Assembly (NCBI RefSeq): GCF_000003815.2
Contig: NC_049983.1
Span: forward strand, 1,571,034-1,635,033
Direction: 5' to 3'
Source: Branchiostoma floridae
Lineage: Eukaryota > Chordata > Leptocardii > Amphioxiformes > Branchiostomatidae
DNA: 64,000 nucleotides
The translations under genes were made by a program, and so were the position numbers. This document shows positions 4,099 through 40,753 of the stretch, piece by piece. Numbering within the stretch: position 1 is the first letter of the stretch; each line of letters starts with the position of its first letter. The notes below the pieces were generated by a model. The model was given only the letters and a program-made list of their open reading frames with translations, did not search any database and was not told the DNA's origin.

Positions 4099-7000
4099 TT
4101 AATGCTGAAAAGCTTTTGAAGTGCCATGTGTTTGTGCCCCTGTAAGATATGGTAGGTACATACGTGCTACCCCGCACTGCTGGCGACCAAACGGACGATA
4201 TTCCTTACCACGCCTAGGCATGGTGGCCTTCATATCTTTCCAAATAGCAGCAGACTCGTCATACACGTATACCAGATATTCGGCTAATGACTCTTGTTTG
4301 GCAATGTCATAGGCTCCTGACAATATATATAGTCGGTTCCCCAGTGCAAATAGATTTGCAAATTCAATCATCACACGTTCTCCTAGATTCAGAAGTTCTC
4401 CTAGATGTGGCAAGCCTCGCAGTTTCTGCCAGCGGTCTAACGCTGTATCGTACACAAAAGTCTGAATGCACTGACCATCTGTACATGTACAGAAAATCTT
4501 TGTTCCTACGGCAACAGCTGATGTGAATGGACGAATGGAACTCGGTGAGGTCCGCCTGTACCACCTGTCCTTGCTAGGGTCGTAGCAATGTACTTCCATG
4601 TATGTGAGGAAATACAGGTATGTACCACAGGACAATATTGGATTGTAGTGTGAACCTCTGTCATGGTGCAGCTGTGAACACTCTTGCCACTGATTTGTGT
4701 GCCGGTTGTACTTTCTCATCTGCAGCAACGGATTGTTTCTTTCAGGATAAACAGAAATGTAATACAAAATGTGATTGACTTCACAAAGGCGATCGAGGCA
4801 CATAAAATCATCTTCTGGTCCCTTAGATATCGAGGACACACTTGCTTGTTCCCACACGTTTTTTGCATGATTGTACTTAAACAGGGACAAATGCATCTCA
4901 TCCTCTGATTGTTTATTTTGCAGGATGTAGATGTCGTTATCACTGGTGACTGTCATGGCAGTGTAATCAGGAAAATCTTCAGGCCTGTAACTGCAGCTGA
5001 TGTACTTCCCTTCCCGTGGGTTTAAGAAGAGAAGATCCTTTGAACTGGAGAGGACGAAATACATCGAAAATTGTCAATTTATGTCGACTAGAAACTCATA
5101 CATTCTACAAAGATGAGACTGAAATCGCAGCATGCTGTGTTTTAGCAAATCTTATCTTTAATGAGAATGCCCTTTATAAGCAGGAATCATACAAATAGTA
5201 CATGTATTGAATGTGGAATGAAATTTTCCAAGAATTGTTCACCGGTTACACCGTCAAACAAATAGTATACTAACCCCCATGTTTGATAGTACAACACGGC
5301 CATTTCCGTGGTCATCCCAAGCCTCGGCTTCAGTTTGAAGATCCCTTTCTGTACCACATTCATGATGACCTCAGAACTCCCAGGATCCTCCCTGACCAGG
5401 GCGTGTTCTAAGATGGCTGCCGTGTCGTCTGAGGTCAGCAGGTTAAAACGAATGTGAGTGAGGATGCTGGGTAGGTGGTGCAGTCTGTAGGGTAAAGAGT
5501 AGGGATGGGTTCAAGTTATTTCCTGGTATAACAGAAGCTTCTTCTATGGACCTATCATGAATCTCCTTTTAAAAGGCAATCCACCATTTGTTCCCAAGTT
5601 AGTTAAAATAGTTCTCATTGTTGTGCATTATGTATGTCTTTTTAATGTTGTAATCTGCGTCTGTTTGTGTATACATGTAATTGTGAAGTTGTATGTTAAC
5701 GATGTTTAATGGACTAAATAAAGTATCAAAATATCCTGGACAATTATCCCTGATAGGGCTAAAGTGAAATGTGTCCATGATTATTTTCATTTCATGAAAA
5801 CTACAGTGAACTCGTTTAGAGCACAGGTAAATTGGCCATAGGCCTTCAATACTAGTTAGTAAGCTTTGGATAAACCAACAACATACACAAATGTACCAAT
5901 ACACACCTGTCCTCCCTGCTGTACTGCACCCATCTCACCACAGCCTCCCACACTGTTGTCTCCTCTTTAACGTCCAGCTCATCATGGCTGATGATCTCAG
6001 TCAACTGATTCACACTCAGGCTGTAGAACCCTTCACTGGAGGCAACCTGTAAAGGCACAGACTACATGTATATGTATGTTACCTGGCTCATGTACTATGC
6101 AAAACAACCTTTCATTGGTAAAGCCTTCTTAAAACTAAAAAAAAAAACAGCATTGGGAGGTGGGTTCTATTCTTTGAAATAATACTGAAGACAGCTGTGC
6201 AGGGTACAAAATTCATATTTGTAGATGAAATTCTGTAATATAAAGATCACCACACTTACAGGGATGCAACCAAATATAATTTTCAAACGTTTTGTAATCA
6301 TTTCAAACACAAAGAATTTTATGACAGATTCCAACCACCCTTTTATTCACCTCACCCTTGCAATAGAGGAGAGAAAAAAAGAGCCGAAGATTCCGTTTGA
6401 CAGGGCACGTGGTGCGCCATGAGGAAATGGCAGGAGGGGTCTTGCTTTGGGAACCAAACGAGCCGCGCAGGCGTGGCCGCCCTTCGGTCACACTCAAGAA
6501 GCTACTGCTGGAGGACACGGGTTTGCAGGCTGGTGAGCTCCGTTCGATCATGCTGGACAGGAACATGTGGAGACGATGGTGTCACTTCTCCGAGGATGAA
6601 CTGAACTGAACTAAAAAAGGAGTGACCTGCTATAAAAATAGATGACCTACCTCAACAAAGTTTCTATGAATCAACTGCAGACAACGGTTTTGGACAATGT
6701 CCACAGAGTAGACATCAGCAAACTTGTACAGGTCCACACAGGTGGAGTGCTCCACGTTCATGGCCATGTAGCTGCTGCAGGTGTCTCTCACATAGTCCAG
6801 TTGGAGGAGGTCGGCTGCCTGGTACAGGGGCTGCACTTTGTCCATTGACACATGGAGGGTTCCCGAGTAGATGTAACTCAGGATCTCTCCAAACATGCCT
6901 GCATCCAAGCCCTGAAAACGATGTAACACTAACAGATAAAGATCAAACATTTATCAGACAATAAACATGTACGATATTATCAGAGTACAGATAATGTCCA

Positions 7001-7766
7001 AGCAGATCCTATGATAGCATAATATAGTACCCAATACAAATAGTAGCCGATGCACGGTCCTGGGTAGGCTACACTTCTTTGCCAGTTTTTGATACACATT
7101 CTACTCAATGCTGCCATAGGATCTGCATGGAGGTTGTTATATAGACACGGTATTATGATCAGAGTAACATTATGTACAACAGGGAAATTTATCAAATTCC
7201 TTTAATTTGAATGAGGTAAAATTTTCATCCCATTCTTCAATTTTATCTACAAAATCTCTACTACCTGCACATCGTCATATGCGTAATTTTTATTGTACAT
7301 GCTGGTAATAGCTAATTGTTATATGTGGCTGGCAAAGTTGACCTTTAACCCCTAAATACCAAAGATAAGTAGGGAGGAGGGCATAGTGGGGGACATGAAC
7401 TTGTCTAACATTTGGGTAAACAATAGATTTGGCCTGTTCTAGATGTACTCTGTGATACTTAGCATTTCCAACAGTTACGTGCTCCACTCTATTGTAACCA
7501 CACAATCCTACGTTTAAAACAACCGTCTTCTGCCGACTTTCCGCCATGTCACTTGTAAACATGGCCCTGAAGTAGGGGCTGGCCGCGGACAGAACAAGCC
7601 GATGGCAGAGAAACCGCCGGCCCTCGACTTCAAGGACGACATCCTGCAGTACCCCAGCCTTCTGTAAGTCACCCACAGTTCCAAGAAACCCTTGCAGATA
7701 GCTCTCTTCTTGGTAGGAACGAGGACGAACTGCGCTGACGTGGGGTTCTTGGTGTGCGGCGGCCAT
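4099..7766 (-). CDS. BTB-BACK-kelch protein, unit A (intact)
   Basis: Five coding exons on the minus strand: 7512-7766, 6651-6911, 5907-6046, 5275-5484 and 4099-5044. Lengths 255, 261, 140, 210 and 946 join to an open frame of 603 residues. All introns are GT-AG, with phases 0, 0, 2 and 2. The start is the ATG of MAAAHQEP, conserved between units; an in-frame ATG lies 10 codons upstream. Residues about 25-135 form the BTB domain ([20 protein letters not shown], then [10 protein letters not shown]). Residues about 140-245 form BACK ([21 protein letters not shown]). From residue 289 there are five or six kelch blades with the usual Trp but without a clear double glycine. Family knowledge: such proteins bind Cullin-3 through BTB and recruit ubiquitination substrates through kelch. 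The exon 1 donor is AAC|GTAGG instead of CAG|GTAGG as in units D and E. Ortholog not determined. Confidence 0.85.
6365..6612 (+). mobile_element. LINE 3' tail in intron 2 of unit A, opposite strand
   Basis: The + strand encodes [10 protein letters not shown], then [14 protein letters not shown] and [10 protein letters not shown] before a stop. This is the arrangement (L-GHV-R, a GRP-T-K box, a final RW patch) seen at the C-terminus of many non-LTR retrotransposon reverse transcriptases. It is followed by a short GAACT repeat typical of such tails. Truncated at the 5' side and not functional. Confidence 0.6.
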
Positions 7767-8973: not shown

Positions 8974-10004
8974 TTATGTCCCATTGAGATATGGTAGGTA
9001 TATACGTGCCACAGGGGAATAAGAACCACGCACTTCATAGGTTTTATGCGGTAGAATGGCCTTCAAGTCTCTCCAGGCATCAGCAGACCTGTCATACATA
9101 AACACAAGATATACAATGCCTTCCTGGGAGTCGCTAGTACAGGTTAACAACACGTGCAGCTGGTTCTCCAGTGCGAAAAAAATGGTCCGATAATAAACAT
9201 AAAAGTTTTCTAGGTTCGGCAAGCCCTTCAGCTCCTGCCAGCGGTCTGACTCTGTATCGTACACCATAGCCTTAGTGAATATAAAGTCCGAGCAAAAAAA
9301 TTCCGTTCCTATAGCAACAGCTGTGCTGACATCCGAGTGTTGGTGGGGTCCTCTCGAACCAACGGTCCTGTTCGGGTCGTAGCAATACACTTCCGTGTCC
9401 GTGAGGAAATACAGGTCTGGACCGCAGGACAATATACTACAAACGACACTAGAATATTGTTAAGTCTCAGTTGTGAACACTCCTGCCACTGGTTTGTGTG
9501 CGGGTTGTACTTTCTCATCTGCAGCAGTGGTCTGTCGTCTTCAGGATCAACAGCAGTGTAATACAGAACCCCATCAACTTCATAAAGGCCTTTCTCATAC
9601 ATGTTATCTTCTGGTCCCTTAGATATTGAGGACACACCTGCTTGTTCCCACGCGTTTTGTTCATGGTTGTACTTAAATAGAGACAACTGATTCTCCTCGT
9701 CTGATTCCTCAGTATGCAGGATAAAGATGTCGTTATCACTGGTGACTGTCATGTCACGGACATAAGGGAGGTCGTAACTGCAGCTGATGTACTTCCCTTC
9801 CTGAGGGTTAATGAAGAGGAACTCCTTGATTACGGAACTGGAGAGGGTTAAAAAACACAGTCAGTAAACCTGGAGCGATAATTCATATCTTTTTATTGGG
9901 ATGAGGCTAGAATCACATGCACTGTTCTATCTTATTTTGTAGCTCCTTGAGAAGCATCCTTTAAAGCATTAGTAGGAATTAGATTAATAGTAGAACAAAA
10001 TGAC

Positions 10005-11118: not shown

Positions 11119-11243
11119 TCCTGCAGTACCCCAGCCTTCTGTAAGTCGCCCACAGTTCCAAGAAAGCCGTGCAGATAGCTCTCGTCTTGGTAGGAACAAG
11201 GACGAACTGCGCTGACGTGGGTTTCTTGGTCCGCGGCAGTCAT

Positions 11244-12900: not shown

Positions 12901-15900
12901 TTATGCCCCCCTAAGATATGACAGGTATATACGTGCCACAGGGCAATGAAAACCATACGTAAAATACTCCGTATTAGGCAGGGTTGCCCTCATGTCTGTC
13001 CAGGTATCAGCAGACCTGTCATACACATATACTAGATTGATGAATCCTTCTTGGGAGTCACTACAGCAGGTTAAGAAGATGTGCAGTTGGTTCCCCATTG
13101 CGAAGAGACTGGGAACATTATCAATATCAAAGTTTCCTGGGTTCGGCCAGCCTTGCAGTTTCTGCCAGCAGTCTAACTCTGTGTCGTACACCATGGTCTG
13201 AGTTAAGTTCATGTCTGTGCAGAAAATCTCTGTTCCCATGGCAACGGCAGTACAGACTTCAGGAATGTACCCTGGTGAGGTCCGCTTGCTCCAACGGTCC
13301 TGGCTTGGGTCGTATCGATGCAGTTCCGAGCTCGTGAGGAAATATAGGAATGAGCCACAGGACAATGCTACATAGTAGTCGTAGTATTCAGTAATGTCAA
13401 TTTGCTGTGAACACTCCTGCCACTGGTCCATGCCCTGGTTGTACTTTATCATCCTTATATCGCCTTCGGATACATCAACAAAAAGACAGCATAAAATCCC
13501 ATTAACTCCAATAAGGTACTTTCTGTTGTATCTCGAATATTCCATAGATATTGAGGACATACCAGCATCTTCCCACACATTTCCCGCATGGTTGTACTTA
13601 AACATGGACAACTTATTGTTACTCTCTTGCTCACGAGTCAGGACGTAGATGTTGTTATCGCTGGTGACTGTCATGGCTGTGGAATCAGGAAGGTCTTCAT
13701 TCCTGTAACTACAGCTGATGTACTTCCTTTCCAGGGGGTTTATGAAGATGACGTCATTGGCACTAGAGAGGAAAAAGTATATCAGAAACTGTCAATAAAA
13801 CTGGACTGGAAACTCATAACTCTTTAGGGATGAGGCTAGATCACAACTTGCACTGGTCTTTCAAATTCTGTAGTCTCTTCATTTATTACATTCAGGCCCT
13901 TAAACTGTGGAATGGTAGTGTACAATGATTTTTTTCAGTTAAAAAAAATCAAACAAATAAATATTTACCGACCCACTGGCCTGATTGGGCAGCAGGGCCA
14001 TTTCCGTGAACATCCCAAGCCTCGGTTTCAGATCGGGGTTTCCTTTCTGTACCACATTACTGATGACCTCAGAACTCCCAGGATCCTCCCTGACCAGAGG
14101 GTGTTCCAAGATGGCTGCCCTGTCGCCTAAGGTCAGCAGGTTGAAACGGATGTGAGGGAGGATGCTGGGCAGGTTGGGCAGTCTGTAGGAACAAGGTAGT
14201 TGTGTGTTCAGATGATTTCTTGGTATCAAAGCAGCTCCTTACTTTTTTTACTCAGTTTGTCTTGATATGCACCAATAGAGAATTAACACAAACCTGTTCT
14301 CTCTGCTGTGCTGCACCCATCTCACCACAGCCTCCCACACTGCTGTCTCCTCTTTAACATCCAGCTCATCGTGGCTGATGATCTCAGTCAGCTGATTCAC
14401 AGTCAGGCTGCAAAACTCGATGGTAAAGGAAAACTGTGGATGCAGATTACATGTACATGTACCAAGGCACTGCGGAAAAGCGTGTCTTTATATTGTGCTT
14501 TCATGCAATATGTATATGAATATGTCATATAATATGGTCTTTTTCAAAACGACCAGCACTTTTTTTCTATCTGTATCCACGTCGCCGGTATAACTACCGA
14601 TCGGTGTAACACACTGCCTTAGCCCGGGACCTCAACTTTATAGGGGTTGCTTCATGTAGATGTACTGTCACACCTAACCTTTAAACCAAAAATGCTTAAA
14701 AGATTTAGTTTAAATGCGCCCTTTCCCCATAATATTTGTTATGATGGGTTCATTTTATTCAAAATATTGCATACTTCATTGAAGGGTACATTTCCTTTCC
14801 CATATCATATAGTTTCTAAAGTTCTTTGAACCATATTGCAGTGTATGCAACATAGATGCGTAATTGAATTGCTATTTTGGACACTGGCCTTACACAATAT
14901 GAAGACTAACCTCAGTAAATTGGCTCGCAATCCCCAGCAGACAAGCTTTACGGACAATGTCTACAGAGTAGACATCAGCAAACTTGTACAGGTCCACACA
15001 GGTGGAGCGCTCCACGTTCATGGCCATGTAGTTGCTGCAAGTGTCTCTCACATAGTCCAGTTGGAGGAGGTCGGCTGCCTGGTACAGGGGCTGCACTTTG
15101 TCCAGGGACACATGGAGGGTTCCCGAGTAAACGTAACTCAGGATCTCCCCAAACATGCCTGCATCCAAACCCTGTAAACAATATAACTTAACAATGTTCA
15201 AACATTTACCACATATAACAATCTCATTATCAGGGTATTATATACAGTAGGGGAAATATATCAGTATCACAGCTTCTTTGATTTAGGACCAAATTCACAT
15301 CCCATTCTCCAATTTAATCTACAACAGCTATTTGCGTATTTAGTTATATGTTCCTGTTAACTAAGCGCAACTGAATTTTCAATTAAGAAATACATACTCA
15401 TAAGGTCGCAGCCCACAGTATTTATCCGCGACCCCCGTGGTCTATTACGCAGGGGTTAAAAAGTAGTGCGTCCGAAATCTGGACTCGCCTGTAAACACCG
15501 TAACGTGAAAGACAGCGGAGGATGAGCTTTGCTATATGGTAGTATAAGGAGTCGACTTTCAGGTGATATGAGTAAGGTTTTGATGTTTGTCCATTTGGTG
15601 TATAAATGTGCGTGACCTTTACAGCTGACTGCCTGGGTGAGTCGGCTGCAGTTCCGTATGGCCCCGCATGGCCCTATTTAAAAGTGGGCGTCATAATAAA
15701 AAAAAAAAAAACACAACTTTTTTTGCTTTTCAGTCATTTTGTAGATTCAACCCTCAACTTCAACATACTAGTTCGGCGTACTTGAAAACTGCACCCTACT
15801 ATGATTTTATCGGCATTGATGTGAGTCACCTTGCGGTCCTTAACTATAGAAATCCCCATAGGCGAAAAACTGTGTTCTGCTACCATAACGGGGGTCCCGT

Positions 15901-16615
15901 GCTCGAGGAGGTGCCTCGACCACGTTAAACAGCCTCATTACTCATACTGGGTACCTACTGGCTGGCAAAATACACCAGATGATTATACAATTTTGGCTCG
16001 CAAAGTTGACCTTTAACCCCTAAATACAAAAAAAAAAAGGTCAGTAAGTGGGGAGGGGGGTATAACGGGGGATATGTCTAACATTTGCGTTTACAATTGA
16101 TTTGGCCTGTTTTAGATGTACTCTGTGATACGTAGCATTTCCAAAAGTTACGTGGTTCACTATATTCTAACCAAACGTTAGCCTCTACCAGGTTTCGTGG
16201 ATCGGTGATCTAATTGTAGAAATTGGACAAATAGAGTCTATAGTACGCTAGGGGAGTTAGCCGGCCAGAAGAGTACGTTTCCTCACCACGATGTGAGGAT
16301 AATGATTCTACCGATCCACGGAGCCTGGTAGAGGCTAACCAAACAAAACGCCAACCATACTTGTATAACAACAGTCTTCTGACGACTTTCCGCCATGTCA
16401 CTTGTAAACATGGCCCTGAAGTAGGGGCTGGCCGCGGACAGAACAAGCCGATGGCAGGGAAACCGCCGGCCCTCGACTTCAAGGACGACATCCTGCAGTA
16501 CCCCAGTCTTCTGTAAGTCGCCCACAGTTCCAAGAAACCCGTGCAGATAGCTCTTATCTTGGTAGGAACGAGGACGAACTGCGCTGACGTGGAGTTCTTG
16601 GTGTGTGGCAGCCAT
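12901..16615 (-). CDS. BTB-BACK-kelch protein, unit C (intact)
   Basis: Exons on the minus strand: 16361-16615, 14911-15171, 14294-14433, 13973-14182 and 12901-13762 (255, 261, 140, 210 and 862 bases). They join to 575 residues. BTB, BACK and kelch domains are arranged as in unit A. Exon 3 opens with FSFTIEFCSL where units A, D, F and G have VA(S/A)S; only unit E shares the FSF form. The exon 4 donor must be GG|GTCGGT to keep phase 2 and the family length of 210; a stronger-looking GTAAAT three bases inside the intron would put the frame out, so this splice deserves a check. The kelch exon is fully open. Predicted Cullin-3 adaptor, from family knowledge. Confidence 0.83.
15885..15985 (+). repeat. 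Dispersed repeat, copy 1
   Basis: GGGGGTCCCGTGCTCGAGGA and CACGTTAAACAGCCTCATTA recur, in the opposite orientation, at 38265-38370. A middle-repetitive element in intron 1 of unit C. Confidence 0.65.
16178..16338. mobile_element. Small MITE next to exon 1 of unit C
   Basis: Imperfect terminal inverted repeats of about 28 bases (TTAGCCTCTACCAGG..CGTGGATCGGT against its complement) lie between copies of CCAAAC at 16171-16176 and 16339-16344. The element sits in intron 1 only 23 bases from the exon 1 donor and is absent from the other units. Confidence 0.75.
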
Positions 16616-18488: not shown

Positions 18489-21400
18489 TTATACACCGTT
18501 TGCACCCTCAGTGCTAGCTGTACCCTGTGTGTTCAGATGCGGCAGGTACATACGAGCCACAGGAAACATTGGGTCAAACATATACCAACGGCCTTCGGAC
18601 AGGATAGACAACTCTTTCCAAACACGTTCACACTTGTCATACACACAAACCAGCCAAACTTCTCTCAACTCCCCTGCAGTATAGCCATGTACCACTGCAT
18701 GCAGCTTGTTTTCGAGCACAAAGAGACTGATGTTTTCAATCCCATAACCTGTGTTCAGCCACCCTGGAAGCTCATGCCAGCTGTCTGCCTCTGTGTCATA
18801 CACCAGTGTCTTGTTTAAGTCATAGTCCGTGCTGAATATTTCTGTGCCAATTGCAACTGCGTTATAGACTTCAGGAATGTGCTCTGACCAGGATTTTCCG
18901 CACCACTGGTCTGCCTTTGGGTCGTAACAATACAATTGTGTCCGTGTAAAGATATAGATGTGGTGATTGCAGGATACCGCCACGTTGTAGTCCAACTGCC
19001 CGTCATGCTGAAGAGTGGAACAGTTGTGCCACTTGTTTGTGTGCTCGGGTTGTACTTCTTTAACACCACCTCAGGCAGTGATGATGTCACAATGAGGTAA
19101 AAGCTGTCCATCAATTTCCATAAGGTAGTCAGAAGGTGGGTAGTGGTCGCTTGGGTCTACCATACATACTGAAGACTTACGTTCCCAATTGTTCTTGATA
19201 TGGTTGTACTTAAACAGAGCATGCTTTTGGCTGGACTCTCTAGCCAGAAAGTAGATGTCATTATCAGTAGTAACTGTTCCTGCGACTGGACATATGTCGT
19301 AGTGACACCTGATGTACTTCCCTTGCCCTGGGTTCATCCACAGCATCTCTTTTGTGCTGTAAAGGATGAGATGAAGCATTCAATGTTCAGTCACATTAAG
19401 TCTTATCTATAAAATTCATCCCACATTCATGCCACAGCAATTGTACTTGTTGGTCCTCGAATGTAAAAAATGTATATATATATCGCTAAAGGGGAATACC
19501 AACATAAACCCGGAAAGCCCTTCCCTTCGTACACAAAGTCTAAAAGATTGAAAATGGTTAGATGTGAGTTTTTTCCCCAGCCTTCTTTTTTCTCATATTG
19601 TCGCCATGCTGCATATTGCTAAGAAATACCAGGGAACCAAGAAACCAATAGGTGTGGCCCCTTTCAAACTTTCACAAAGTTACTGTAGACTTATTAATAA
19701 CTGTACACAGGATTAATAAACGTGCATTCAAAGCACACAAAAAATAAGTCTGTTATTAATCTTTAACATTTGCAGCAAAAAGCGAATGAAAACCTAATGT
19801 ATCATTTTTAATGAATGAACAAGAGCCATATTTCTTTTGCTGCGGAGAGACAATATTGCAGTTGTCATTGATGGAAAAGGGGATATTTTACTTATTGCTG
19901 ACACTGATGCTGATTAAACGAAAGGAGCACGAGCCTGTACTTATTTTCAACACACCTTTCAGTGAAAAGTAGAGCCATTTCCAGTGTGTCCATCCCGACC
20001 CTCCTCTTCATGTTGGAAGTCTCCTTTACCACGTTCCTGATAGCAGATCTCCCAGGATCCTCGCTGATCAGGGGGTGATCCAAGATGGCCACCATGTTGT
20101 ACGGGGTCAGCAGGTTGAAGCGGATGTGAGGGAGGATGTTGGGTAGGTGGTGCAGTCTGTAGGGTACAGGATGGGGTGGATTTATCTGACATTTTGGTGC
20201 AACATCAACATTGTCAATGAATTATGTTTATTCCATGATAGAACCGTCAGTTTTACCTAAAAACACAAACCTGTCCTCCCTGCTGTGCTGCACCCATCTC
20301 ACCACAGCCTCCCACACTGTTGTCTCCTCTTTGACATCCAGCTCATCGTGGCTTATGATCTCAGTCAGCTGATTCACACTCAGGCTATAAAACTCCTCAC
20401 TGGAGGCAACCTGTGGCAGTAGAGTACATATACTGTATGGTACGGTGAAATGCAAAGGCTTCTTAAAACTGATGATAATGATGAAGAAAACTGAAAAGCA
20501 CTGAAAAGTAGGCTATAAAAACTATTTATATCTTTCTGCTGTTAAGAAATTCCTTTTTTTTAGATGACATCTTCTAAGATAACAGTCGCTTTACTTATAA
20601 AGAAACTGTAATTTGTATTTAGCAAACTCTAGAGTTTCAAGAAGGATTTAAACCACCTATGTATGAGAGAAAAGCAAAACAGAAATGAAGTGAAGTTGTC
20701 AAAATAGCATCAGACCAACCTCAACAAAGCTTCTTTGGATAAACTGCAGACAAGCTTTTTTGACAATGTCCACAGAGAAGACATTCGCAAACTTGTACAA
20801 GTCCACACAGGTGCAGCGCTCCACGTTCATGGCTAAGTAGCTGCTGCAGGTGTCTCTCACATAGTCCAGTTGGAGGAGGTCGGCTGCCTGGTACAGGGGC
20901 TGCACTTTGTCCAGGGACACACGGAGGGTTCCCGAATAGATGTAACTTAGGATCTCCCCAAACATGCCTGCATCCAAGCCCTGCAAAACAGTAAATCGTA
21001 ATAATGTTCAAACATTTAACACATGAGGTATCATTATCAGGGTGTATAAGGAAGGGAAATATATCACATTTGCTTGTTTATCTTATGAAGGTCATTATCT
21101 CTACTACTTCTTATGTGTACTTAATCTGTGTCCGATAACTGTAAATAATTTTTTTTTTTGTGTTAAAAATACATGCTCATTATAATGTGGCCACAAAGAT
21201 GAACTTTGACCCCAATATGAGGCCACTAGGTGGGGAGGGGGGCATGATGTGGGGCAAATGAAAGTTTGATTTGTTCATTTTGGTAAAAAAAGGATCTCAA
21301 CTGCTTCACATCTTCTCTATGGTACGTAGCATCTTTGCAAGTTCTCTGTCTACTCTATTCTAACTCTATTCTACACCGACCCTACCTGTAAAACAACCGT

Positions 21401-21640
21401 CTTCTGGCGACTTTCCGCCATGTCACTTGTAAACATGGCCCTGAAGTAGGGGCTGGCCGCGGACAGAACAAGCCGATGGCAGGGAAACCGCCGGCCCTCG
21501 ACTTCAAGGACGACATCCTGCAGTACCCCAGCCTTCTGTAAGTCACCCACAGTTCCAAGAAACCCGTGCAGATAACTCTCGTCTTGGTAGGAACGAGGAC
21601 GAACTGCGCTGACGTGGGGTTGTTGGTCTGCGGCAGCCAT
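18489..21640 (-). pseudogene. BTB-BACK-kelch unit D, kelch exon frameshifted
   Basis: Exons 1-4 are open and well spliced: 21386-21640, 20720-20980, 20271-20410 and 19956-20156 (exon 4 is three codons short). The kelch exon (18489-19356) changes frame twice. An extra base in a T run near 19096-19102 leads to a stop after about 85 codons. Two extra bases at the NPHTNKW codons near 19038-19042 restore the frame, and from there the sequence is open to the end (VARMYLPHLN). As read, the product stops in the first third of the propeller but keeps BTB and BACK. The two lesions sum to three bases, so a sequence or assembly error should also be considered. Confidence 0.75.
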
Positions 21641-23454: not shown

Positions 23455-23513
<59 letters not shown>

Positions 23514-25421: not shown

Positions 25422-28400
25422 TTATGTACTCTTAAGATATGGTACGTACATACGTGCCACGGGGGAAGAAGAACCAAACGTATAATAATCATTATTATTA
25501 GGGAGGTTTGCATTCAGCTTTGCCCAGGCATCAGCAGACCTGTCATAAACATATACCAGATATACCATGTCGTCATGGAGGTCGCTATCACAGGCTAACA
25601 AAATGTGCAGCTGGTTCCCCAGTACGAAAAGGCTTTGACTACCATCAACATCGAGGTTTCCTGGCTTCTCCCAGCCACGCAGTTTCTGCCAGCGGTCTGA
25701 CTCTGTGTCGTACACCATCGTGTGAGTGAAAGGGGAATCTGTACAGAAAATCTCGGTTCCCATGGCAACAGCTGTACAGACACTATGAAAGATCCCAGGT
25801 GGGGTCCTCTTGCACCACCGATCCTCCACTGGGTCATAGCGATGCATTTCCTTGTTTGTAAGGAAATAGATGTGTGAATCACAGGATAATACTGCTACGT
25901 CTTCAAAAGCCATGTCAAGCTGCAGCTCTGAACACTCCTGCCACTGGTTTGTGCGTGGGTTGTACTTTCTCATTTGCTGCAAAGACCGACCGTCATTAAC
26001 AGCAAGGTAATAAAAATTCTGATCAACTTTAAAAAGGTGTTCCTCATACAACGAAAAGTCGTCTTCTGGTCTCTCAGATATCGAGGGCACACCTGATTGT
26101 TCCCAAAGGTTTACTACAGGGTTGTACTGAAACAGGGACAACTGCTTCTTATTCTCTGATTCTATAGTTTTTAGGATATAGATATCGTTATCACTGGTGA
26201 CTGTGATGGCTGTGGAATCAGGAAGGTCTTCTAGCTTGTAACTACAGCTGATGTACTTTCCTTCCTGAGGGTTCATGAAGAGGAGCTCGTTGGAACTAGA
26301 GAGGAAAAAATACATCTGTCATTATAAGTGTCCAAAGTAAAACTGGACTGTAAACTTATAACATTAACTTCGTATAGGGATAATGCTGAAATCACAGCAT
26401 GCACTGTACAAGCAAGTCTTATCTTGTAGCCCCTTAAGAAATGTCTAAAAGTATAAAGATGAATAAGAATAGTGCATTTATTGCAGGAACACAGAATTTG
26501 GAATGACATTGTGCAATGGTTTTTCACAGCTAACAAAATTTAACAAATAAGTAAGTACCCCGGGGCTGCATTGTACAGCAGCGCCATTTCCATGGTCATC
26601 CCAAGTCTAGGCTTCAGGTTGAGCTTCGCTTTATGTATGACATTTCTGATGACCTCATTACGCCCAGGATCCTCCCTGACCAAGGGGTGATCCAAGATGG
26701 CTGCCGTGTCGTCTGTGGTCAGCAGGTTTAAGCGGATGTGAGAGAGAATGCTGGGTAGGTGGTGCAGTCTGGAGGGTACAGGGTAGGGGCAGATTTAGCT
26801 GGCTGCCTGATATCACATCACATTCTTAATTAATTATTTTATGTTCAAACCTTAATTTGCACCTATACCCACCTGTCCTCCCTGCTGTGCTGCACCCATC
26901 TCACCACAGCCTCCCACACAGTTGTCTCCTCTTTAACATCCAGATTATCGTGGCTGATGATCTCAGTCAGCTGATTCAAACTCAGGCTGCAAAACTCCTC
27001 ATTAAAGGAAAACTGTGATGCACAAAGTACACAAGTGCAAGGTGTTCTGATGTACAAAAACAATACGTGTATAAGATTATATACTACTCAACAATAGCAA
27101 TCAAACGCTCAACAGAATGCGGTGTAAATGACTTAATTTTGTTCTGACATATACGAATGTGCATTTTTTTTATGGCTAATCTGAAAAGCAATCAAATGCC
27201 CTGTATGTATACAGCCTCTGTTACTGCCCATTATGTATCACACCGACTTTTCAGGCACATGGCATAGATGCAATCGGTTGTACCTTAATGGAAGACCTGC
27301 CATACCTAACCTCTTAACACCAACTTTTTCAACATTCTTTGTTATAGGGGGTCTATTTTTCTTAAATATTGCATACATCAGCAAAATTAATATTTAATCG
27401 TATCACAAAATTTGTGCTACAGTAGCTCTTTGGGCTAATTCATTAGGTAAAGATATAATGCACAGCTTACCAGCCCAATAGGAAGACTAACCTCAGAAAA
27501 GTGTCTGGCGCTCCACTGTAGACATTGCTGCTTAACAATGCCCACAGAGAAGACATCAGCAAACATGTACAGGTCCACACAGGTGGAGCGCTCCACGTTC
27601 ATGCTCATGTAGCTGCTGCAGGTGTCTCTCACATAGTCCAGTTGGAGGAGGTCAGCTGCCTGGTACAGGGGCTGCACTTTGTCCAGGGACACATGGAGGG
27701 TTCCCGAGTAGATGTAACTAAGGATTTTCTTAAACATACCTGCATCCAAACCCTGCAAAACAGTAAATCATAACAATGTTCTACCATTAAACACATAAGG
27801 TGTCATTATCAGGGTGTTTAGAGAAGGGAAATGTATAAAAAAAATTGCTCTATTATTATATGGACGTCAATTTTTCCCCATTCAGTTATTTTATCTACTA
27901 TAGTACATGATCTCTACTAATATGTTGTACTAGTAGTAACTTCATCTGTGCCCGATAACTGTAAAGATTACTAAAGAATTCTTTTTGTAAAAAAATACAT
28001 GCTCATTATAAGGTAGCAGAGTACATTTTACTGGACCCTGCGACCTTAATGTGGCCACAAAGATGAACTTTGACCCAAAAATTTCAAGAGGTCAGTAGGT
28101 GGGGAGGGGGGTTGGCAAAAGGAGGGACAAAGGAAAGATTAATGAGCAAGGCTATTGACACACTCAGTGTGCCGATAGTCTGACAGGCTATTGACACACT
28201 CAGTGCACTATTTTTTTTTACACTAGAAACCACTAAAATGAGAAAATCTTACGATAGTATTTGACAGTCAACACTCTGAAAAAACAAGTGGCATTCTATG
28301 TCCATCATCAACCGAAAATACGATCTTTTTCACGCGTTACCGCACCATTTTTGACATCGGAATCTGTCATACAATAAGGTGCTAGTTTTACTGTCACCGC

Positions 28401-29659
28401 ATGTGATCATGTTGGCTCTGTTTTGGAACACGTTTTCAGCTGTGTTTACCGACGAATTCCTGCCGTTTGGGAGAATTTGTGGCCTCAAAACTTATATTAC
28501 AAGTGAAGCGAAGTTATAGTTGTTGTTTTACTTCCATCACTTTTAATGTGAAAGAACTTTATAGCGTCATAGCGAGATCGACCGATATGTTACGAGTACC
28601 GCGTAACCACTAGCCTGTTTGGATGACATAGCGGCGGGGAAATCCGCGCCGCTTCGACCAAAAAAAAAAGTGAATTTTGAGCAAAAATACCGCAGAAATA
28701 TGGTTAGAAAAACCCACATTTTATTATTTCAGGGGTCCTTGGCCCAATTAAAAAAAAAATAATAAGTGTACCGTCCAAAATAAGAACGTAGCGGTTGGAT
28801 TCTGCCGATCTGCGGCTGAAAAAAATAAACGTACCTAAACACGCACTCATGAAAATGCAGATCAAAAAGTCCCAAAGGTGGGTTTTGATGGTTCTGGTCG
28901 CAAGACTAAAATATTCTTATATCAAATGGATGTTTAAAAAGGTAAAAGGACAATTGAAAAAAAAAAAAAATCCAGCGCGGACTCGAACCGGGGTCGGAGC
29001 TGGTAACATGGATTCACGGGTCAACGCACTATCCACTACGCTACCGGCCAATTTAGGAAATGAGGCTGTATCAACAGGTATCAAAATGTAGGACATAACT
29101 TGAATACGTCCGTTCATTCCAAGATTCAAAGATTCTTATGTCTAATCTTCCGAACAATGTCTAACCAACTGTTGCTTGTGTAAAATGTCGGAAAGTCATG
29201 TTACAAGCTCTGATTGGCTGGCTAGCATCTCGGTGTGTCAATAGCCTGTTTGGCTATTGGCACACTGAGTGTGTCAATAGCCACAGCAAAGATGAATTCA
29301 TTCGTTTTTGTAAATAATGGACTTCCCGTGTTTTGTATTTTTTCTAGCATCTTCAGGTATCTTCTGAAGTTATCTGTTTCACTCCATTTTGACTCCAGGC
29401 CTACCTGTAAAACAACCGTCTTCTGACGACTTTCCGCCATGTCACCTGTAAACATGGCCCTGAAGTAGGGGCTGGCCGCGGACAGAACAAGCCGATGGCA
29501 GGGAAACCGCCGGCCCTCGACTTCAAGGACGACATCCTGCAGTACCCCTGCCTTCTGTAAGTCACCCACAGCTCCAAGAAACCCGTGCAGATAGCTCTCG
29601 TCTTGGTAGGAACGAGGACGAACTGCGCTGGCGTGGGGTTCTTGGTCTACGGCAGCCAT
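25422..29659 (-). CDS. BTB-BACK-kelch protein, unit E (intact)
   Basis: Exons on the minus strand: 29405-29659, 27492-27752, 26873-27012, 26559-26768 and 25422-26295 (255, 261, 140, 210 and 874 bases), joining to 579 residues with the family's phases 0, 0, 2 and 2. The start is MAAVDQEP; an in-frame upstream ATG gives eight more residues (MGHVIIIN). BTB contains [25 protein letters not shown] contains [13 protein letters not shown], and the kelch part ends [16 protein letters not shown]. The kelch exon is closest to that of unit G (SSNELLF, YISCSYK). Intron 1 is long because it holds a 1.13-kb TIR element. Predicted Cullin-3 substrate adaptor by family; substrate unknown. Confidence 0.86.
28150..29282. 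mobile_element. 1.13-kb TIR element in intron 1 of unit E
   Basis: About 50-base terminal inverted repeats (28150-28199 and 29233-29282, 4 mismatches seen) begin GGCTATTGACACACTCAGTG. The motif is itself repeated within each end. The interior has no transposase-like frame; it carries a tRNA-like sequence at 28972-29049. Target duplication not clear. Absent from the other units. Confidence 0.8.
28972..29049 (-). other. tRNA-like sequence (pseudo-tRNA or SINE head)
   Basis: On the minus strand, TAGCGTAGTGGATAGTGCG (box A-like, 29025-29043) and GGTTCGAGTCC (perfect box B, 28979-28989) are spaced as in a tRNA gene and followed downstream by a long T run, a Pol III terminator. The acceptor arms do not pair convincingly, so a functional tRNA is unlikely. 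Confidence 0.6.
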
Positions 29660-30830: not shown

Positions 30831-30834
30831 TTAA

Positions 30835-31721: not shown

Positions 31722-34596
31722 TTAGGTCTGCAGTGCTATATATGTCAGCACACCTGGCAGGTAGACACGTGCCACAACAGGTGGACAGTCCCAGTCCATG
31801 TCAGGCAGGGTGACATCCAACTCTCTCCAACTACCTTTACACCTATCATAGACAAGTACATGTTGGCGTTCTGGATCATCAGTATTTAAATACACATGTA
31901 GCTGGTTCTCATGTACAAATAAATTAGCACTGTAATCCTCAGCCTCGATAGGACTTTCCCAAGCTGGAAGCTGCTGCCACCTGTCTGCCTCAGTATCGTA
32001 CACTGACACAGAAGTAAAGTCAATGTCTGAATGGAAGATCTCAGTACCCATTGCAATACTGGACCAGGACATATCGGTAAAATCAGTCAGTGGGGCTCGG
32101 TTGAACCAGCAATCCTCCTTTGGGTTGTAACAGTGCAGATATGTTGAGCTTAGCAAATAGAGGCAACCATTTGACACTGATGGTTCCATGTACGAAAGGT
32201 TAACTTTGAGCTGGGAACAGTCCTGCCATTCAACCGTGTTGCTGTCATACTTCTTCAGGGTAAGGTTCTGTGTCTGTGACGGGTAGGTCCAATTACAACC
32301 AAAGTAATAGAGATGTTGATCAAGAGCCAAAAGGTATTGGTCTGTTAGCGATCCGGGAAGCTTCTCCACTAATGACTTCTGTTCCCAGACACCCTTCATT
32401 TGCTTGTACAACAGCAGGGACATATGAACCTCTGTCTCCTTTGTCAGAATGTAGATCTCGTTGTCACTGGTGACTGTAGCACCGATGATATGAGGGATTT
32501 CAGGGAAACTCCAGCTAAAGTACTTTCCTAATCTGGGATTTATGCCATGCATCTTGTTGGGACTGAAAAAAAAAAGAAATTTGAGAATTTAAGAACAATG
32601 CACACATCTAGCTTCATTCGTATGGGAAAGGATTAAGATTGAGGTCAACTACATCCAACATCATATGTTTCAGCTAGTCTGTAGATGGGGCCACAAGGGC
32701 AGCAAAAATTTGTATAATGTCCACACCAAGCTTTAGTTAAATAAGTTCAGACCTGGTTTCAAAGAAAAGGGCCATGTCCTCTGCACCAATCCCAAATCTT
32801 GGCTTCGAGTTGGATGCGCCTCTCAGTACCACATTCCTGTTGATCTCAGAACTCCCAGGATCCTCCCTGACCAGGGGGTGATCCAAGATGGCTGCCGTGT
32901 CAACAAGATGGCTGCAGTGTCAACTGAGGTCAGCAGGTTGAAGCGGGTGTGAGGGAGGATGCTGGGTAGGTGATACTGTCTGTAGGGTACAGAGTAGGAC
33001 CAACGTTTTGCGGACATGTTTCAACATCACTTAAGAAATTTCTGGGATGTTGAATCTGGTATTATAACCTACGGAAGTGGTAGTAATGAAGTTTCAAAGT
33101 TTATGTAGTCATTTAATGTGTACACAGAATTACCAACCGGTTAGAGAAATAGGAGATATCTATAGATAACACCCACCTATCCTCCCTGCTGTGCTGCACC
33201 CATCTCATCACAGCCTCCTACACTGTTGGCTCCTCTTTAACGTCCAGCTCATCATGGCTGATGATCTCAGTCAGCTGATTCACACTCAGGCTGCAAAACT
33301 CCCTGCTGGAGGCAACCTGCGAAGACACAGATTACATGTACATGTATGTTACGTGGCTCATGTGCAAATCAAGTGTTCATAGGTAAAGCCTTCTTAAAAC
33401 TGAAAAAAAAAACATTGGGAAATGGGTTCTATTCTGAATTCTGACATAATACTGAAGGCCACTGTGCAGGGTACTAAAATTACAAAAATGCAACCAAATA
33501 TGATTTGCTAACGTATTGCAATAATTTTTAACACAAGGACTTATTTTTGTAGAACCTCAAGGCAGATTATAACCACCCTTGTATTAACCTAACCCTTGTT
33601 ATAGAGGAGAGAAAAAATGAATTGACCTAAGTGCTATAAAATTAAACGACCCACCTCAACAAAGTTTCTATGGATCAACTGCAGACAACAGTTTTGGACA
33701 ATGTCCACATAGTACATATCAGCAAACTTGTACAGGTCCACACAGGTGAAGCACTCCACGTTCATGGCCATGTAGCTGCTGCAGGTGTCTCTCACATAGT
33801 CCATTTGGAGGAGGTTGGCTGCCTGGTACAGGGGCTGCACTTTGTCCAGGGACACATGGAGGGTTCCCGAGTAGATGTAACTCAAGATCTCTCCAAGCAT
33901 GCCTGCATCTAAACCCTGCAAAACAGCAAATGGTAACAATTTTCAAATGCTCAACACATAAGGTATTATTATCAGGGTGTATAAAGAAGGGAAATATATC
34001 GTAAATTTTCTTGATCATTTTCCTCCCATTCTGTTTTTTATCTACATAATCTTTACTACTTCTTACTAGTTCTTCATCTCTTGCTGTTAACTGTAAAGAA
34101 TCCATTTTTTGTTCAAAATACATGCTCATTATAATGTGACCGCAAAGCTAGACTTTGACACCCAAATCCCTAAGAGCTCAGTAGGTGGAGAGGGGGCATA
34201 TCTAGGGACAAAGGAAAGTTAAACGTTTGTTAGTTTTGGTAAACAATAGAATTCCACTGTTTTAGATGTTCTCTATGGTACGTAGCATCTTTGGAAGTTC
34301 TTTGTTTCACTCTATTCTAACTCTATTCTACACCAAACCTACCTGTAAAACAACCGTCTTCTGCCGACTTTCCGCCATGTCACTTGTAAACATGGCCCTG
34401 AAGTACGGGCTGGCTGCGGACAGAACAAGCCGATTACAGGGAAACAGCCGGCCCTAGACTTCGAGGACGACATCTTACGTACCCCAGCATTCTGTAAGTC
34501 ACCCACAGTTCCAAGAAACCCGTGCAGATAGCTCTCGTCTTGGTAGGAACGAGGACGAACTGCGCTGGCGTGGGACTCTTGGTCTGCGGCAGCTAT
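31722..34596 (-). pseudogene. BTB-BACK-kelch unit F, exons 1 and 4 broken, kelch exon open
   Basis: Exon 1 (34343-34596): the start codon is ATA instead of ATG and abuts a mariner insertion. One base is missing near 34474, so its length is 254 instead of 255 and the frame is lost after DLQNAGV. Exon 2 (33655-33915) and exon 3 (33177-33316) have normal lengths and sites. Exon 4 (32753-32979) carries a 20-bp tandem duplication (32885-32904 and 32905-32924) that breaks the BACK frame. Exon 5 (31722-32562) is open for 280 codons with an intact acceptor. Its kelch part is the most divergent of the seven, for example MHGINPRLGKYFSWSF. Splice sites are all still GT-AG. Confidence 0.83.
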
Positions 34597-35167
34597 ACGA
34601 GGTGCGTGCAATAAGCAATGTCCCTGACCCATTTCCCATAGCAGGAGATTAATGAAACTTGACACAGATATTAGTCATTCCCTTCATAGAAATCACCCAG
34701 AGTTATGCATTTCTCCCATCGTTTGATGCAGCTCTGGACACCGTTTTTGTAGGACACCCCAGGTTGGTCCTCCAACAGATGCCTCATCAATGGCAGAAGA
34801 GGGACGACCAGGTCTGGGAGCTGTTTCCACAGACTTCCGGCCACGTTTGAATTCAGGATGCCAGCGTTTTACAAGGTCATATGATGGGGCATCATCACCA
34901 TATGTTTCTTTCATGTCATCAAAAGTCTTCTTTGGTGTGCGTCCTTTCAAATACAAAAACCGGATCACTGCGCGACACTCAACTGGCTCCATTTCACACC
35001 TGGTCCATTTCGCACCTGACTCAATTCAAACACCAGTAAATCAGAAACCACAATTAGTTCAGAGCTGTCTTTTGCAACATAACCCATAGAGATATAAATC
35101 ATTACACATACAAAATTTAATTTAGATCAAACGACTGAAAGGGACACTACTTATTGCACGCCCCTCG
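34596..35167. mobile_element. Mariner deletion derivative at the unit F start codon
   Basis: Inverted ends of about 30 bases (TACGAGGTGCGTGCAATAAG; right end the complement of ACGAGGGGCGTGCAATAAG) are flanked by TA (34594-34595 and 35168-35169). Removing the element and one TA restores GCAGCTATGTTGG, the exon 1 leader with one base change. Inside is a mariner transposase remnant on the minus strand. Confidence 0.85.
34693..34992 (-). pseudogene. Mariner transposase, internally deleted
   Basis: A 99-residue frame starts MEPVECRAVIRFLYLKGRTP and continues through SYDLVKRWHPEFKRGRKSVE and RPGRPSSAIDE. This is the N-terminal helix-turn-helix region of mariner transposases (the SETMAR-like type). 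It then jumps directly to a C-terminal-like ELHQTMGEMHNSG. The catalytic DDE/D core is missing, so no transposase activity can be expected. Confidence 0.8.
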
Positions 35168-35313: not shown

Positions 35314-35315
<2 letters not shown>

Positions 35316-36614: not shown

Positions 36615-39600
36615 TTATGTGCTCTTAAGATATGGTAGGTATATACGTGCCACAGGGGAATAAGAACCAAATGCATGATACTCCTCATTAATAGGGAGAT
36701 TTGCCTTCAGCTCTTTCCAGACATCAGCAGACCTGTCATACACATATACCAGATATACCATGTCGTCATGGAGGTCACTAATACAGGTTAACAATATGTG
36801 CAGCTGGTTCTCCAGCACGAAAATAATAGGAAAACGGGCAACATAAAGGTTTTCTGGGTTCTCCAAGCCTTGCAGTTTCTGCCAGCGGTCTGACTCTGTG
36901 TCGTACACCATCGTGTTATTGAAAGGGAAATGTGTACAGAAAATCTCTGTTCCCATGGCAACAGCTGTACAGACATAAGGAATGATCCCAGGTGGGGTCC
37001 GCTTGGTCCACCGATCCTCCCTTGGTTCATAGCGATGCATTTCCTTGTTTGTGATAAAATAGATGTGTGAACCACAGGATAATGCTGCTGCGGCGTCAAA
37101 AGTTATGTCAAGTTGCAGCGGTGAACACTCTTGCCACAGGTTTGTGTGTGGGTTGAACTTTCTCATCTGCTGCAAAGACCGACCGTCATAAACAGCAAGG
37201 TAATATAAAGTCCCATCAACTTCAAAAAGGTGTTCCTCATAGATGTCGTCTTCTGGGCCCTTAGATATCGAGGGTACACTTGCTTGTTCCCACAGGTTCT
37301 TTGCATGGCTGTACTTAAACAAGGAGAACTGATTCTTATCCTCTGATCCTTTAGTGTTAAGGATGTAGATGTTGTTATCACTGGTGACTGTGATGGCTGT
37401 GAAATCAGGAAGGTCTTCAGGCTTGTAACTGCAGCTGATGTACTTCCCTTCCTGAGGGTTGATGAAGAGGAGCTCATTGGAACTACAGCGGACAAAATAC
37501 ATCTGTCAAACTCTCGAAATTAAAACTGGACTGGCAGCTTATAACTTTCTACAGGGATAAGGCTGAAATCGCAGCAGACACTGTTCTGCAAAATGTTAAG
37601 AAATGTCTAAAAGACTTCGCAGTTATTGGATGAACAGTACATTCATAACAATTAATTCTATTGCAGGACCACAGAATGTGGAAAGATAAATTGCACAATA
37701 GCTGTTCACAGCTGGTATATACGTACTCTCCGGCCGTATTGTACAGTAGCGCCATTTCCGTGGTCATCCCAAGCCTCGGCTTCAGGTTGAGGTTCCCTTT
37801 CTGTACCACATTTTGGATGACCTCAGAACTCCCAGGATTCTCCTTGACCAGAGGATGTTCAAAGATGGCTGTCGTATCGTCTGAGGTCAGCAGGTTGAAG
37901 CGGATGTGAGGGAGGATGCTGGGTAGGTGGTGCAGTCTGTAGGGTAAAGGTAGGTGAAGATTTAGCTGGTTGCCTGACACTATGTATCACATCATTTTTT
38001 TAATTAAGTTTATGTCATGTTTAAACTACAATGTGTACCTACACCCACCTGTCCTCCCTGCTGTGCTGCACCCATCTCACCACAGCCTCCCACACTGTTG
38101 TCTCCTCTTTAACATCCAGCTCATCATGGCTGATTATGTCGGTCAGCTGATTCACACTCAGGCTGCAGAATTCCTCGCTAGCGGCAACCTGTAGAGGACA
38201 AAGTACTTAGCACATGCATGTGTATAGTACTGTGGAAAGCAACCTTTATAGGCAAATAATATCGAGTGTATTTGCAGCCAGTGCCACAGGCAGGTACCCA
38301 ATGTGTAGGGTAATGAGGCTGTTTAACGTGTTCGAGGCCCCTCCTCGAGCACGGGACCCCCGTTTTACGTACCTCCCGGAAGACGATTTCGTGGAAAACT
38401 TCGTGAGGCTACAGCAATCCGGACGTCCTTGGTTGGTCTCCAATCCAAGCACTATCTGGACCGCGCGTTGCTTAACTTCCGAGATCGAGGGATCGGGTGT
38501 ACCAACGCTTAAAGCTAAATTGCACTGAATTTTTCCTTTGTATTATTCTTTAAAGCATCTTAAAAGGTTACAAAATTCAAACTTGTAGACTATAATATTT
38601 AAGATAACGTCACTCTACTTATGTAGGATAAAAAAACACTTAATTTGAAACGTTTTATAACAAGTTTATAATACACAAAGTGATTCTTGTATAACTTTAA
38701 GGACAGGTGACAACCACCCTGGTATGACAGGAAAGTCTTAAGATCAAAAATCTTTGCCCAGGGTTTCTATGGTTCTACATAGAAGACTATCTCCTACCAG
38801 GATGTCAGTTGCTAAATTGACTCCTCACATACTTCCAACATCAGATATGGCTTAGACCCAGTGGGAGATATCTACCCGTCTGGCTACCAAGAGCAAAAAA
38901 ATTGGTATTACAACAGAAGACAGGAAGACATTTGCATATTAATCAAGATTTCAAAAATAATGTCCACAAATATTTCAAGAAATTATTGTCAAGCACAGGA
39001 AACGGGCGAAGATAGTACTGTAAATGCAGAAATGTTCGCGGTGGATTTATGTTCGCGGTTTTCGCGTTGGCCATTTCACCGCGAATTTAAAACCACCGCG
39101 AACATTTTTCCAGGGTATTAAGATACTACAGTGCATGGTGCTACCGTGAAATTAAAACCACCACGAAAAGTCCTTTTTCCCGCTACCGCGAAATTAAATC
39201 CCCGCGAACTTAAATGCATTTACAGTACCTGCAAGCACCAAACCGAAGTTTAGTTGTTCACAGGTTTTGTTTTTTTTTCACACAAGAGCTCGGGCGTAAT
39301 GTTGTATCAGGGCCTACAGTTCCAAATCCTTGTTTAAACTGCATTTCAGCAAAGACCAGCCCCTGTCAAGTTTGAACTACTTACATTTTGCAACTTGTAA
39401 CTGTCTTCCTCAAATCTCAATATGGCTTATGGTGATATTCATAGTTGACCAGTGTTCACTCAGGGGCTTTGTAGGACTGTACAACAAGTTGTATCTGGGT
39501 CAAATTGAGAAACATTCCAGGCAGACCATGGCAAGCTATGCTTTATAATGTTTGTAAGCTGAATCGTGAAGCTATGCTGAATTGTGTGTAGCCATACTTC

Positions 39601-40753
39601 GATTCTTTATCTGTTCAAGACTACTGACTTATGTGCATTTCAAAACTGATTCGAAGAGTAACTTCAATACTTGCTAATCTGTATTAGCCTGCCTCCACTG
39701 ATGTGAACACAGCGGTAGTTGGGACCAGACTAAGGGCTGGTAGTTAACGTGAGCCGAATTTATTGGGTGATTTTAGTGACCTACTATCAATACATCACAC
39801 CCACCTCAACAAAGCTTCTATGGATCAGCTGCAGACAAAGCGTCATGATATGGTTTACAGAGAAGACATCTGCAAACTTGTATAGGTCAACACAGGTGGA
39901 GCGCTCCACGTTCATGGCCATGTAGCTGCTGCAGGTGTCTCTCACATAGTCCAGTTGGAGGAGGTCGGCTGCCTGGTACAGGGGCTGCACTTTGTCCATT
40001 GACACACAGAGGGTTCCCGAGTAGATGTAACTCAGGATCTCTCCTAACATGCCAGCATCTACACCCTACAGAACAGTAAATCGTAACAATGTTCAAACAT
40101 TTACCACATAAGGTATCGTTTAGGGTGTATAAAGAATGGAAATATATCACAAATTTGCTTGATTATCTTAAAAAGGTAAATTTTTCCTTCAATTCTGTTA
40201 ATTTACCTACATAATCTCTGCTACTTCTTACTAATACTTCGTCTGTTTCTGATAACTGTAAAGAATTCTTTTTTTTTTTGGTGAAAAATACATGCTCATT
40301 ATAATGTGCCCACAAAGTTGAACTTTGATCCCAAATTCCAAAGAGGTTAGTAGGTGGGGAGTGGGCATAACGAGAGACAAAGGAAAGTTATTTTTAACAT
40401 TTGTTAGTTTTGGTTAACAATGCATTTCCCCTGTTTTAAACGTTCTCTATGGCATCTTAAGAAGATCTCTGTTTCACTCTATTCTACACCAAACATACCT
40501 GTAAAACAACCGTCTTTTGACGACTTTCCGCCATGTCACTTGTAAACATGGCCCTGAAGTAGGGGCTGGCCGCGGACAGAACAAGCCGATGACAGGGAAA
40601 CCGCCGGCCCTCGACTTCAAGGACGACATCCTGCAGTATCCCAGCCTTCTGTAAGTCGTCCACAGTTCCAAGAAACCCGTGCAGATAGCTCTCGTCTTGG
40701 AAGGAACGAGAACGAACTGCGCTGACGTGGGGTTCTTGGTGTGCAGCAGCCAT
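36615..40753 (-). CDS. BTB-BACK-kelch protein, unit G (intact)
   Basis: Exons on the minus strand: 40499-40753, 39805-40065, 38049-38188, 37727-37936 and 36615-37482 (255, 261, 140, 210 and 868 bases), joining to 577 residues with phases 0, 0, 2 and 2. The start is [15 protein letters not shown]. Exon 2 begins [17 protein letters not shown], where the other units have GLDAGMF. BACK reads [13 protein letters not shown] and [14 protein letters not shown]. The kelch exon is open to [13 protein letters not shown] and closest to unit E. It is the first unit in the direction of transcription. Predicted cytosolic or nuclear Cullin-3 adaptor by family; substrate unknown. Confidence 0.86.
38265..38530 (-). 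repeat. Dispersed repeat, copy 2
   Basis: The reverse complement of about 38265-38370 matches the copy at 15885-15985. The copy here is longer and sits in intron 2 of unit G, next to exon 3; an open frame that crosses it is not a gene. Confidence 0.6.
39016..39227. mobile_element. 212-bp MITE with TACTGTAAATGCA ends
   Basis: Ends TACTGTAAATGCA and TGCATTTACAGTA. The interior repeats ACCGCGAA / TTCGCGGT words in both orientations. A second good copy lies at 43572-43776 and an old one near 17690-17935. It is in intron 2 of unit G. Confidence 0.8.

Follow-up and report, generated by a model that had tools for sequence, protein, structure and literature searches.

The 64,000-nt stretch of Branchiostoma floridae DNA analysed here (from here: the window; C5:1571034-1635033, contig NC_049983.1) carries on its minus strand a tandem cluster of kelch genes. 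Judged from their sequence, they encode BTB-BACK-kelch proteins that are probable Cullin-3 adaptors. We report that this adaptor family, whose dock is nearly uniform and whose reader varies, is real, genome-wide and larger than the original prediction for this DNA had claimed, with well over a hundred dispersed copies, of which the window cluster holds only a small share. Synonymous divergence (dS) rises from exon 1 to the kelch exon; hence, purifying selection at the protein level alone cannot explain the uniform 5′ exons. We lean towards the explanation that the 5′ exons are exchanged by gene conversion or recombination, keeping the dock alike, and that the kelch exons diversify as a repertoire of target readers. 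By analogy, such a layout with a uniform docking end and a variable gripping end would match one otherwise known from large immune-receptor families.

Architecture and genomic scale of the kelch family

Seven kelch units, lettered A to G from the 5′ end, follow each other on the minus strand from position 40753 to 4099. Chance can be ruled out for the cluster because its units recur as direct-repeat families of 113–300 nt with up to seven copies. The predicted location (4099–40753, minus strand), exon lengths (255, 261, 140 and 210 nt, then the kelch exon), phases (0, 0, 2, 2) and GT-AG borders were borne out in units A, C, E and G. For exon 4 of unit E, the in-frame donor GTCGGT was chosen, located 4 bases before the out-of-frame GTAAAT. 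The accompanying claim of seven equal units was rejected, as only these four of the seven are intact genes, while B, D and F are broken by reading-frame lesions, an insert or missing exons. The following features were assigned:

40499..40753, minus strand: unit A exon 1 (BTB part), 255 nt, ATG start
39805..40065, minus strand: unit A exon 2, 261 nt
38049..38188, minus strand: unit A exon 3 (BACK), 140 nt
37727..37936, minus strand: unit A exon 4, 210 nt
36615..37482, minus strand: unit A kelch exon, intact (Pfam, structure model)
34598..35167, minus strand: Mos1/mariner-type insert in unit B, at the TA from the ATG to ATA change
34343..34596, minus strand: unit B exon 1, broken (ATA start, 1-nt deletion, stop)
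33655..33915, minus strand: unit B exon 2
33177..33316, minus strand: unit B exon 3, in-frame TAG
32753..32979, minus strand: unit B exon 4, tandem duplication of about 20 nt
31722..32562, minus strand: unit B kelch exon, open 279 codons (Pfam)
29405..29659, minus strand: unit C exon 1
27492..27752, minus strand: unit C exon 2
26873..27012, minus strand: unit C exon 3
26559..26768, minus strand: unit C exon 4
25422..26295, minus strand: unit C kelch exon, intact
21386..21640, minus strand: unit D exon 1
20720..20980, minus strand: unit D exon 2
20271..20410, minus strand: unit D exon 3
19956..20156, minus strand: unit D exon 4, 201 nt
18489..19356, minus strand: unit D kelch exon, frame lost and regained, stop between
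16361..16615, minus strand: unit E exon 1
14911..15171, minus strand: unit E exon 2
14294..14433, minus strand: unit E exon 3
13973..14182, minus strand: unit E exon 4, 210 nt, weak donor GTCGGT
12901..13762, minus strand: unit E kelch exon, intact
11120..11242, minus strand: unit F exon-1 fragment, cut by reverse-transcriptase element
8974..9837, minus strand: unit F kelch exon, frameshifted
7512..7766, minus strand: unit G exon 1
6651..6911, minus strand: unit G exon 2
5907..6046, minus strand: unit G exon 3
5275..5484, minus strand: unit G exon 4
4099..5044, minus strand: unit G kelch exon, intact (Pfam)

In unit B the start codon is ATA, exon 1 has lost 1 nt and contains a stop, exon 3 contains another stop, and exon 4 measures 227 nt with a duplication of about 20 nt inside; the kelch exon of this unit is open over 279 codons despite the broken 5′ exons. 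The insert in unit B spans 570 bp, has inverted ends and a Mos1-type helix-turn-helix domain, and is bordered by TA at either end; the TA target of this Mos1/mariner-type element arose when ATG changed to ATA. In unit D all constant exons are open, exon 4 measures 201 nt, and the frame of the kelch exon is lost and later regained with a TGA in between. The exon-1 fragment of unit F is interrupted by a reverse-transcriptase element (RVT_1), a search for exons 2–4 of this unit gave no match, and its kelch exon is frameshifted. Units B (31722–34596) and D (18489–21640) are mirror images, one with a dead constant part and an open kelch exon, the other with an open constant part and a broken kelch exon.

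All Pfam scores of unit A were above the cut-off (BTB 101.4 bits, BACK 94.9 bits, Kelch_6 32.5 bits); Kelch_6 also exceeded it in unit G, and Kelch_1 barely did so in unit B. The best solved-structure match of unit A, over residues 37–471 of 577, was KBTBD2. The kelch profile matched KBTBD2 over 14–281 of 288, with one designed propeller scoring slightly higher. At the BTB site, M-x-E occurs in all 42 distinct exon-1 copies (45 before the removal of duplicates, L020 skipped) and aligns to L-S-E of KBTBD2; we take it to be the phi-X-E Cullin-3 motif. AlphaFold2 modelling of five open kelch exons gave 22 strands at a predicted local distance difference test score (pLDDT) of 75.8 and a predicted template modelling score (pTM) of 0.79. 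Read from these modelled strands, with the blades assigned by hand from strand order, the kelch domain is predicted to form a six-bladed beta-propeller.

The genome search covered 513 Mb on 431 contigs. Exon-1 protein yielded 147 matches at E < 1e-15 on 14 contigs (150 scored of 429 candidates), including a few fragments, among them the two halves of the unit B exon 1 and the unit F fragment. Identity dropped to 43–52% in the last three scored matches, so the exon-1 list seems nearly complete. There were at least 135 matches to kelch exon A (135 of 135 scored; 244 candidates) and at least 150 to the BACK domain (150 scored of 545 candidates). The predicted combination of a fixed dock with a variable kelch part thus holds genome-wide. 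Further dense runs of BACK matches, many in long open frames, are located at C8:19.03–19.06 Mb, C4:29.15–29.49 Mb and C1:24.01–24.12 Mb and apparently represent further adaptor expansions in the same genome.

Silent divergence and conflicting exon trees

For comparison with the window genes, 15 genes were picked by exon-1 similarity. As this biases them towards a similar exon 1, eight genes picked by kelch similarity alone were added, which provide the fairer figure. Exon 1 was within the fetched stretch for seven of these eight, that of L060 starting 4 bases before its stretch.

Among the four intact window genes, mean dS in exons 1 to 5 was 0.085, 0.248, 0.288, 0.279 and 0.44–0.45, and among the seven kelch-picked genes 0.198, 0.262, 0.238, 0.435 and 0.846. 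Exon-1 dS in the window was about five times below kelch dS and was the lower of the two in all six window pairs (permutation p 0.0002–0.061, below 0.001 in five of them). Four-fold sites agreed with the gradient, except that exon 3 was as low as exon 1. Equal divergence across all exons, named beforehand as an outcome contrary to the original prediction, did not occur (dS 0.085 in exon 1 vs 0.442 in the kelch exon). The described "almost word-for-word" likeness of exons 1 and 2 applies to exon 1, with a pooled identity of 93.9% over six units (A–E, G), but not to all of exon 2, for which mean dS among 17 genes was 0.13 in codons 1–55 vs 0.37 in codons 56–87. The GC content at third codon positions was 0.56–0.59 in exon 1, 0.65–0.74 in exons 2–4 and 0.45–0.55 in the kelch exon, a comparison giving no clear sign of biased conversion.

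The ratio of nonsynonymous to synonymous differences per site (pN/pS) in exon 1 was 0.61 in the window genes, not below that of most exons, and ranged from 0.41 to 0.61 across gene sets. When exon 1 of the 17 genes was split, pN/pS was 0.75 in codons 1–40 vs 0.24 in codons 41–85, and dS was low in both halves (0.079 and 0.068, respectively). Hence, the uniformity extends to silent sites, beyond protein constraint. Purifying selection had been proposed as a keeper of exons 1–2; at the protein level it is insufficient, and as the sole cause of exon-1 uniformity it is rejected.

Exon trees were compared by the approximately unbiased (AU) test in a core of 22 genes, from which L051, L053 and L060 were left out for missing or poor exons and L059 and L061 as too distant. 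The exon groups rejected each other's trees, except for overlapping sets (exon 2 with exons 1–2; exon 4 as the tree for exons 3–4). The kelch data rejected the tree of exons 1–2 by 689 log units, while the kelch tree was rejected by 127 log units with exon 2 data and by 56 with exon 1 data. Exon 1 and exon 2 also rejected each other's trees. Such conflict suggests that members have undergone exchange or gene conversion, with different histories for the 5′ and the kelch exons. Among the 17 genes, 13 of which were picked by exon-1 likeness, the exon-1 distance was 0.070 in 76 between-chromosome pairs vs 0.073 in all 136 pairs. Unit G and L049, located 0.78 Mb apart, are 96% alike over exon 2 plus 23 nt of intron and differ at 32% of aligned bases in their kelch exons; their shared stretch is suggestive of a conversion tract.

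Replacement change in the kelch exon

According to a study on KLHL20, the substrate surface of that protein is shaped by its BC and DA loops (PMC6720452). With the loops placed on the structure model, pN/pS among the four intact window genes was 1.17 in BC and DA loops vs 0.59 in AB and CD turns (p 0.0095 for the ratio); pN was 0.349 vs 0.181 (p 0.0003) at equal pS. In the 22 genes the corresponding ratios were 0.84 vs 0.39 (p 0.0001), and when codons within three of a gap were dropped, leaving 18 BC/DA and 33 AB/CD codons, p was 0.0005 for pN and 0.018 for the ratio. A concentration of replacement change on the BC/DA substrate face, as placed on the model, is thus well supported, and positive selection on this face is only suggested. 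A BC/DA ratio above 1 was restricted to the four window genes and was absent from the 22 genes and from close pairs. An overall kelch ratio above 1 was not found, pooled pN/pS being 0.59–0.74 and the gene-wide kelch omega (dN/dS, model M0) 0.74 in the 22 genes. These ratios and the BC/DA concentration differ from strong purifying selection on the kelch exons with no excess replacement, the second outcome named beforehand.

The codon models M0, M1a and M2a were implemented in Python. M2a was favoured over M1a in the kelch exon with twice the log-likelihood difference (2dL) at 139.7; exchange among genes breaks the single-tree assumption of this model. With loop bounds set by hand, 22 of the 30 sites with a posterior above 0.9 fell in BC/DA loops and none in AB/CD turns; six others lie in strands at most three residues from a BC/DA loop and two in the unassigned C-terminal stretch.

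Explanations, related systems and neighbouring elements

In the exchange explanation that we favour, each protein would dock Cullin-3 via the common BTB/BACK part and present a private kelch face to its substrate. Gene conversion or recombination, acting even across chromosomes, would swap the 5′ exons among members and keep the dock alike; kelch exons would escape homogenisation and diverge into a repertoire of target readers that share a scaffold. Several results weigh against it. Codons 41–85 of exon 1 are subject to purifying selection at the protein level (pN/pS 0.24). A longest-run conversion test on silent codons was not significant, and the pairwise homoplasy index (PHI) on 42 exon-1 copies gave no recombination signal inside exon 1 (p 0.33). 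The exon-1 borders are sharp, with a third-position diversity of 0.05–0.08 and 0.32 in the first 20 intron bases (ungapped), exon-1 and kelch distances correlate (Mantel r 0.58, 25 genes, L053 and L060 left out), and several exon trees are poorly resolved or of low support, which can inflate the conflict between them. For the kelch exon, pS was also higher in the BC and DA loops of the 22 genes (p 0.028). The substrate face had no higher ratio than the comparison codons in three independent close pairs (0.50 vs 0.50), since its pN was higher but so was its pS. M2a was favoured in the control exons 1, 2 and 4 too, not in exon 3, and its 2dL in the kelch exon fell from 139.7 to 121.4 without gap columns, to 31.4 without codons within three of a gap and to 10.4 without those within five, when four of five M2a sites were in strands, off the substrate face. 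On these grounds, M2a by itself makes a weak case for positive selection.

With the longest-run and PHI tests negative, constraint on synonymous sites stays a rival: nucleotide-level selection on splicing signals, a small-RNA target or mRNA structure might hold exons 1–2 alike under tree-like descent with no exchange. The sharp exon-1 edges, also expected under such constraint, the two negative tests and the kelch distance signal retained in exon 1 are compatible with it. However, exon 1 and exon 2 data reject each other's trees and the kelch tree, unlike slow tree-like descent, a point weakened by poor resolution, and codons 1–40 of exon 1 change amino acids freely (pN/pS 0.75) at a dS of 0.079; we consider this rival unlikely. 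The same borders would arise from conversion limited to exons once introns had ceased to pair, so that exchange is favoured with moderate confidence. The predicted gene conversion on exons 1–2 is accordingly backed by the conflict of exon trees but not by the longest-run and PHI tests. Ordinary birth-and-death duplication under relaxed constraint, with loops varying by tolerance and neither diversifying selection nor a repertoire function, would account for three broken units among seven, a gene-wide kelch omega of 0.74, the lack of a substrate-face ratio excess in the close pairs and the many alignment gaps in kelch loops. Yet relaxation does not produce a four- to five-fold spread of dS among the exons of a single gene, and the AB/CD turns on the opposite face are conserved (0.39 vs 0.84, 22 genes), which makes it quite improbable. 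A partial splicing array, joining the constant exons of one unit to the kelch exon of the next, is conceivable because exon-4 donors and kelch acceptors share their phase. It could draw on the complementary damage of units B and D and on the chance of 0.018–0.069 (for six to four lesions) that the unit B kelch exon stayed unhit, a weak figure that treats lesions as independent; with the unit F kelch exon frameshifted and four intact units complete on their own, we give it very little credence.

Extending the exchange explanation, we tentatively raise the possibility of a chordate lineage that, lacking antibody-type immunity, has in its germline a repertoire of well over 100 Cullin-3 readers, the dock exon homogenised across chromosomes and the kelch face diversifying; such an E3-ligase counterpart of the fish NLR-B30.2 repertoire may degrade foreign intracellular proteins. 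If so, the split between a homogenised effector and a diversifying reader would have arisen once more, in Cullin-3 adaptors, beyond the NLR and TRIM families. With more than a hundred kelch faces sharing a scaffold, the family would then be a natural set for studying how kelch loops encode substrate choice, and one could ask whether ubiquitin ligases serve lancelets in innate recognition.

Among known systems, the zebrafish NLR-B30.2 family comes closest (PMC4852459). It comprises nearly 400 genes of one exon structure, mostly on one chromosome arm and interspersed with multi-zinc-finger genes; the NACHT exon is little diverged within groups, the B30.2 exon is diverse with high dN/dS, and the two exons are considered to be affected differently by gene conversion. 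The logic of a uniform and a variable exon would be the same, and C2H2 arrays likewise flank the window cluster. In the lancelet, however, it is a probable Cullin-3 dock that is shared and a kelch propeller that varies, any immune role is hypothetical, and selection on the reader exon is only suggested. The finTRIM expansion, discussed in the same paper (PMC4852459), similarly appears to combine a conserved effector part with a variable reader in different domains and lineages. Adaptors of the KBTBD2/KLHL type share the domain order, the best solved-structure match and the M-x-E site, but in the lancelet a single subfamily sharing its 5′ part has more than a hundred copies, and KBTBD2 is the best PDB match only. 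Nematode MATH-BTB and F-box expansions also pair a conserved effector part with a variable reader, their domains and lineages differing from those of the lancelet family. In literature on amphioxus or Branchiostoma kelch genes, KLHL tandem duplication or conversion, and kelch selection or immunity, none of the titles and abstracts listed describes this family, subscription papers being partly outside the search; the main text of the lancelet pangenome paper contains neither "kelch" nor "BTB".

A palindromic TGACC-n-GGTCA element, which we take to resemble paired nuclear-receptor half sites, is located some 30 bases ahead of exon 1, for instance near 40783 and 29689 on the minus strand. Within the 120 bases before the ATG it is present in 19 of the 42 exon-1 copies, and TTTGACC in 31. 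C2H2 zinc-finger arrays flank the kelch cluster on both sides, at 1–652 (plus strand), 49798–50766 (minus strand) and 58207–59895 (plus strand). In and beside the cluster there are also direct repeats of about 1073 bp (92–95% alike) and about 300 bp (60–93% alike), at 22400–24233 and 53970–55501.

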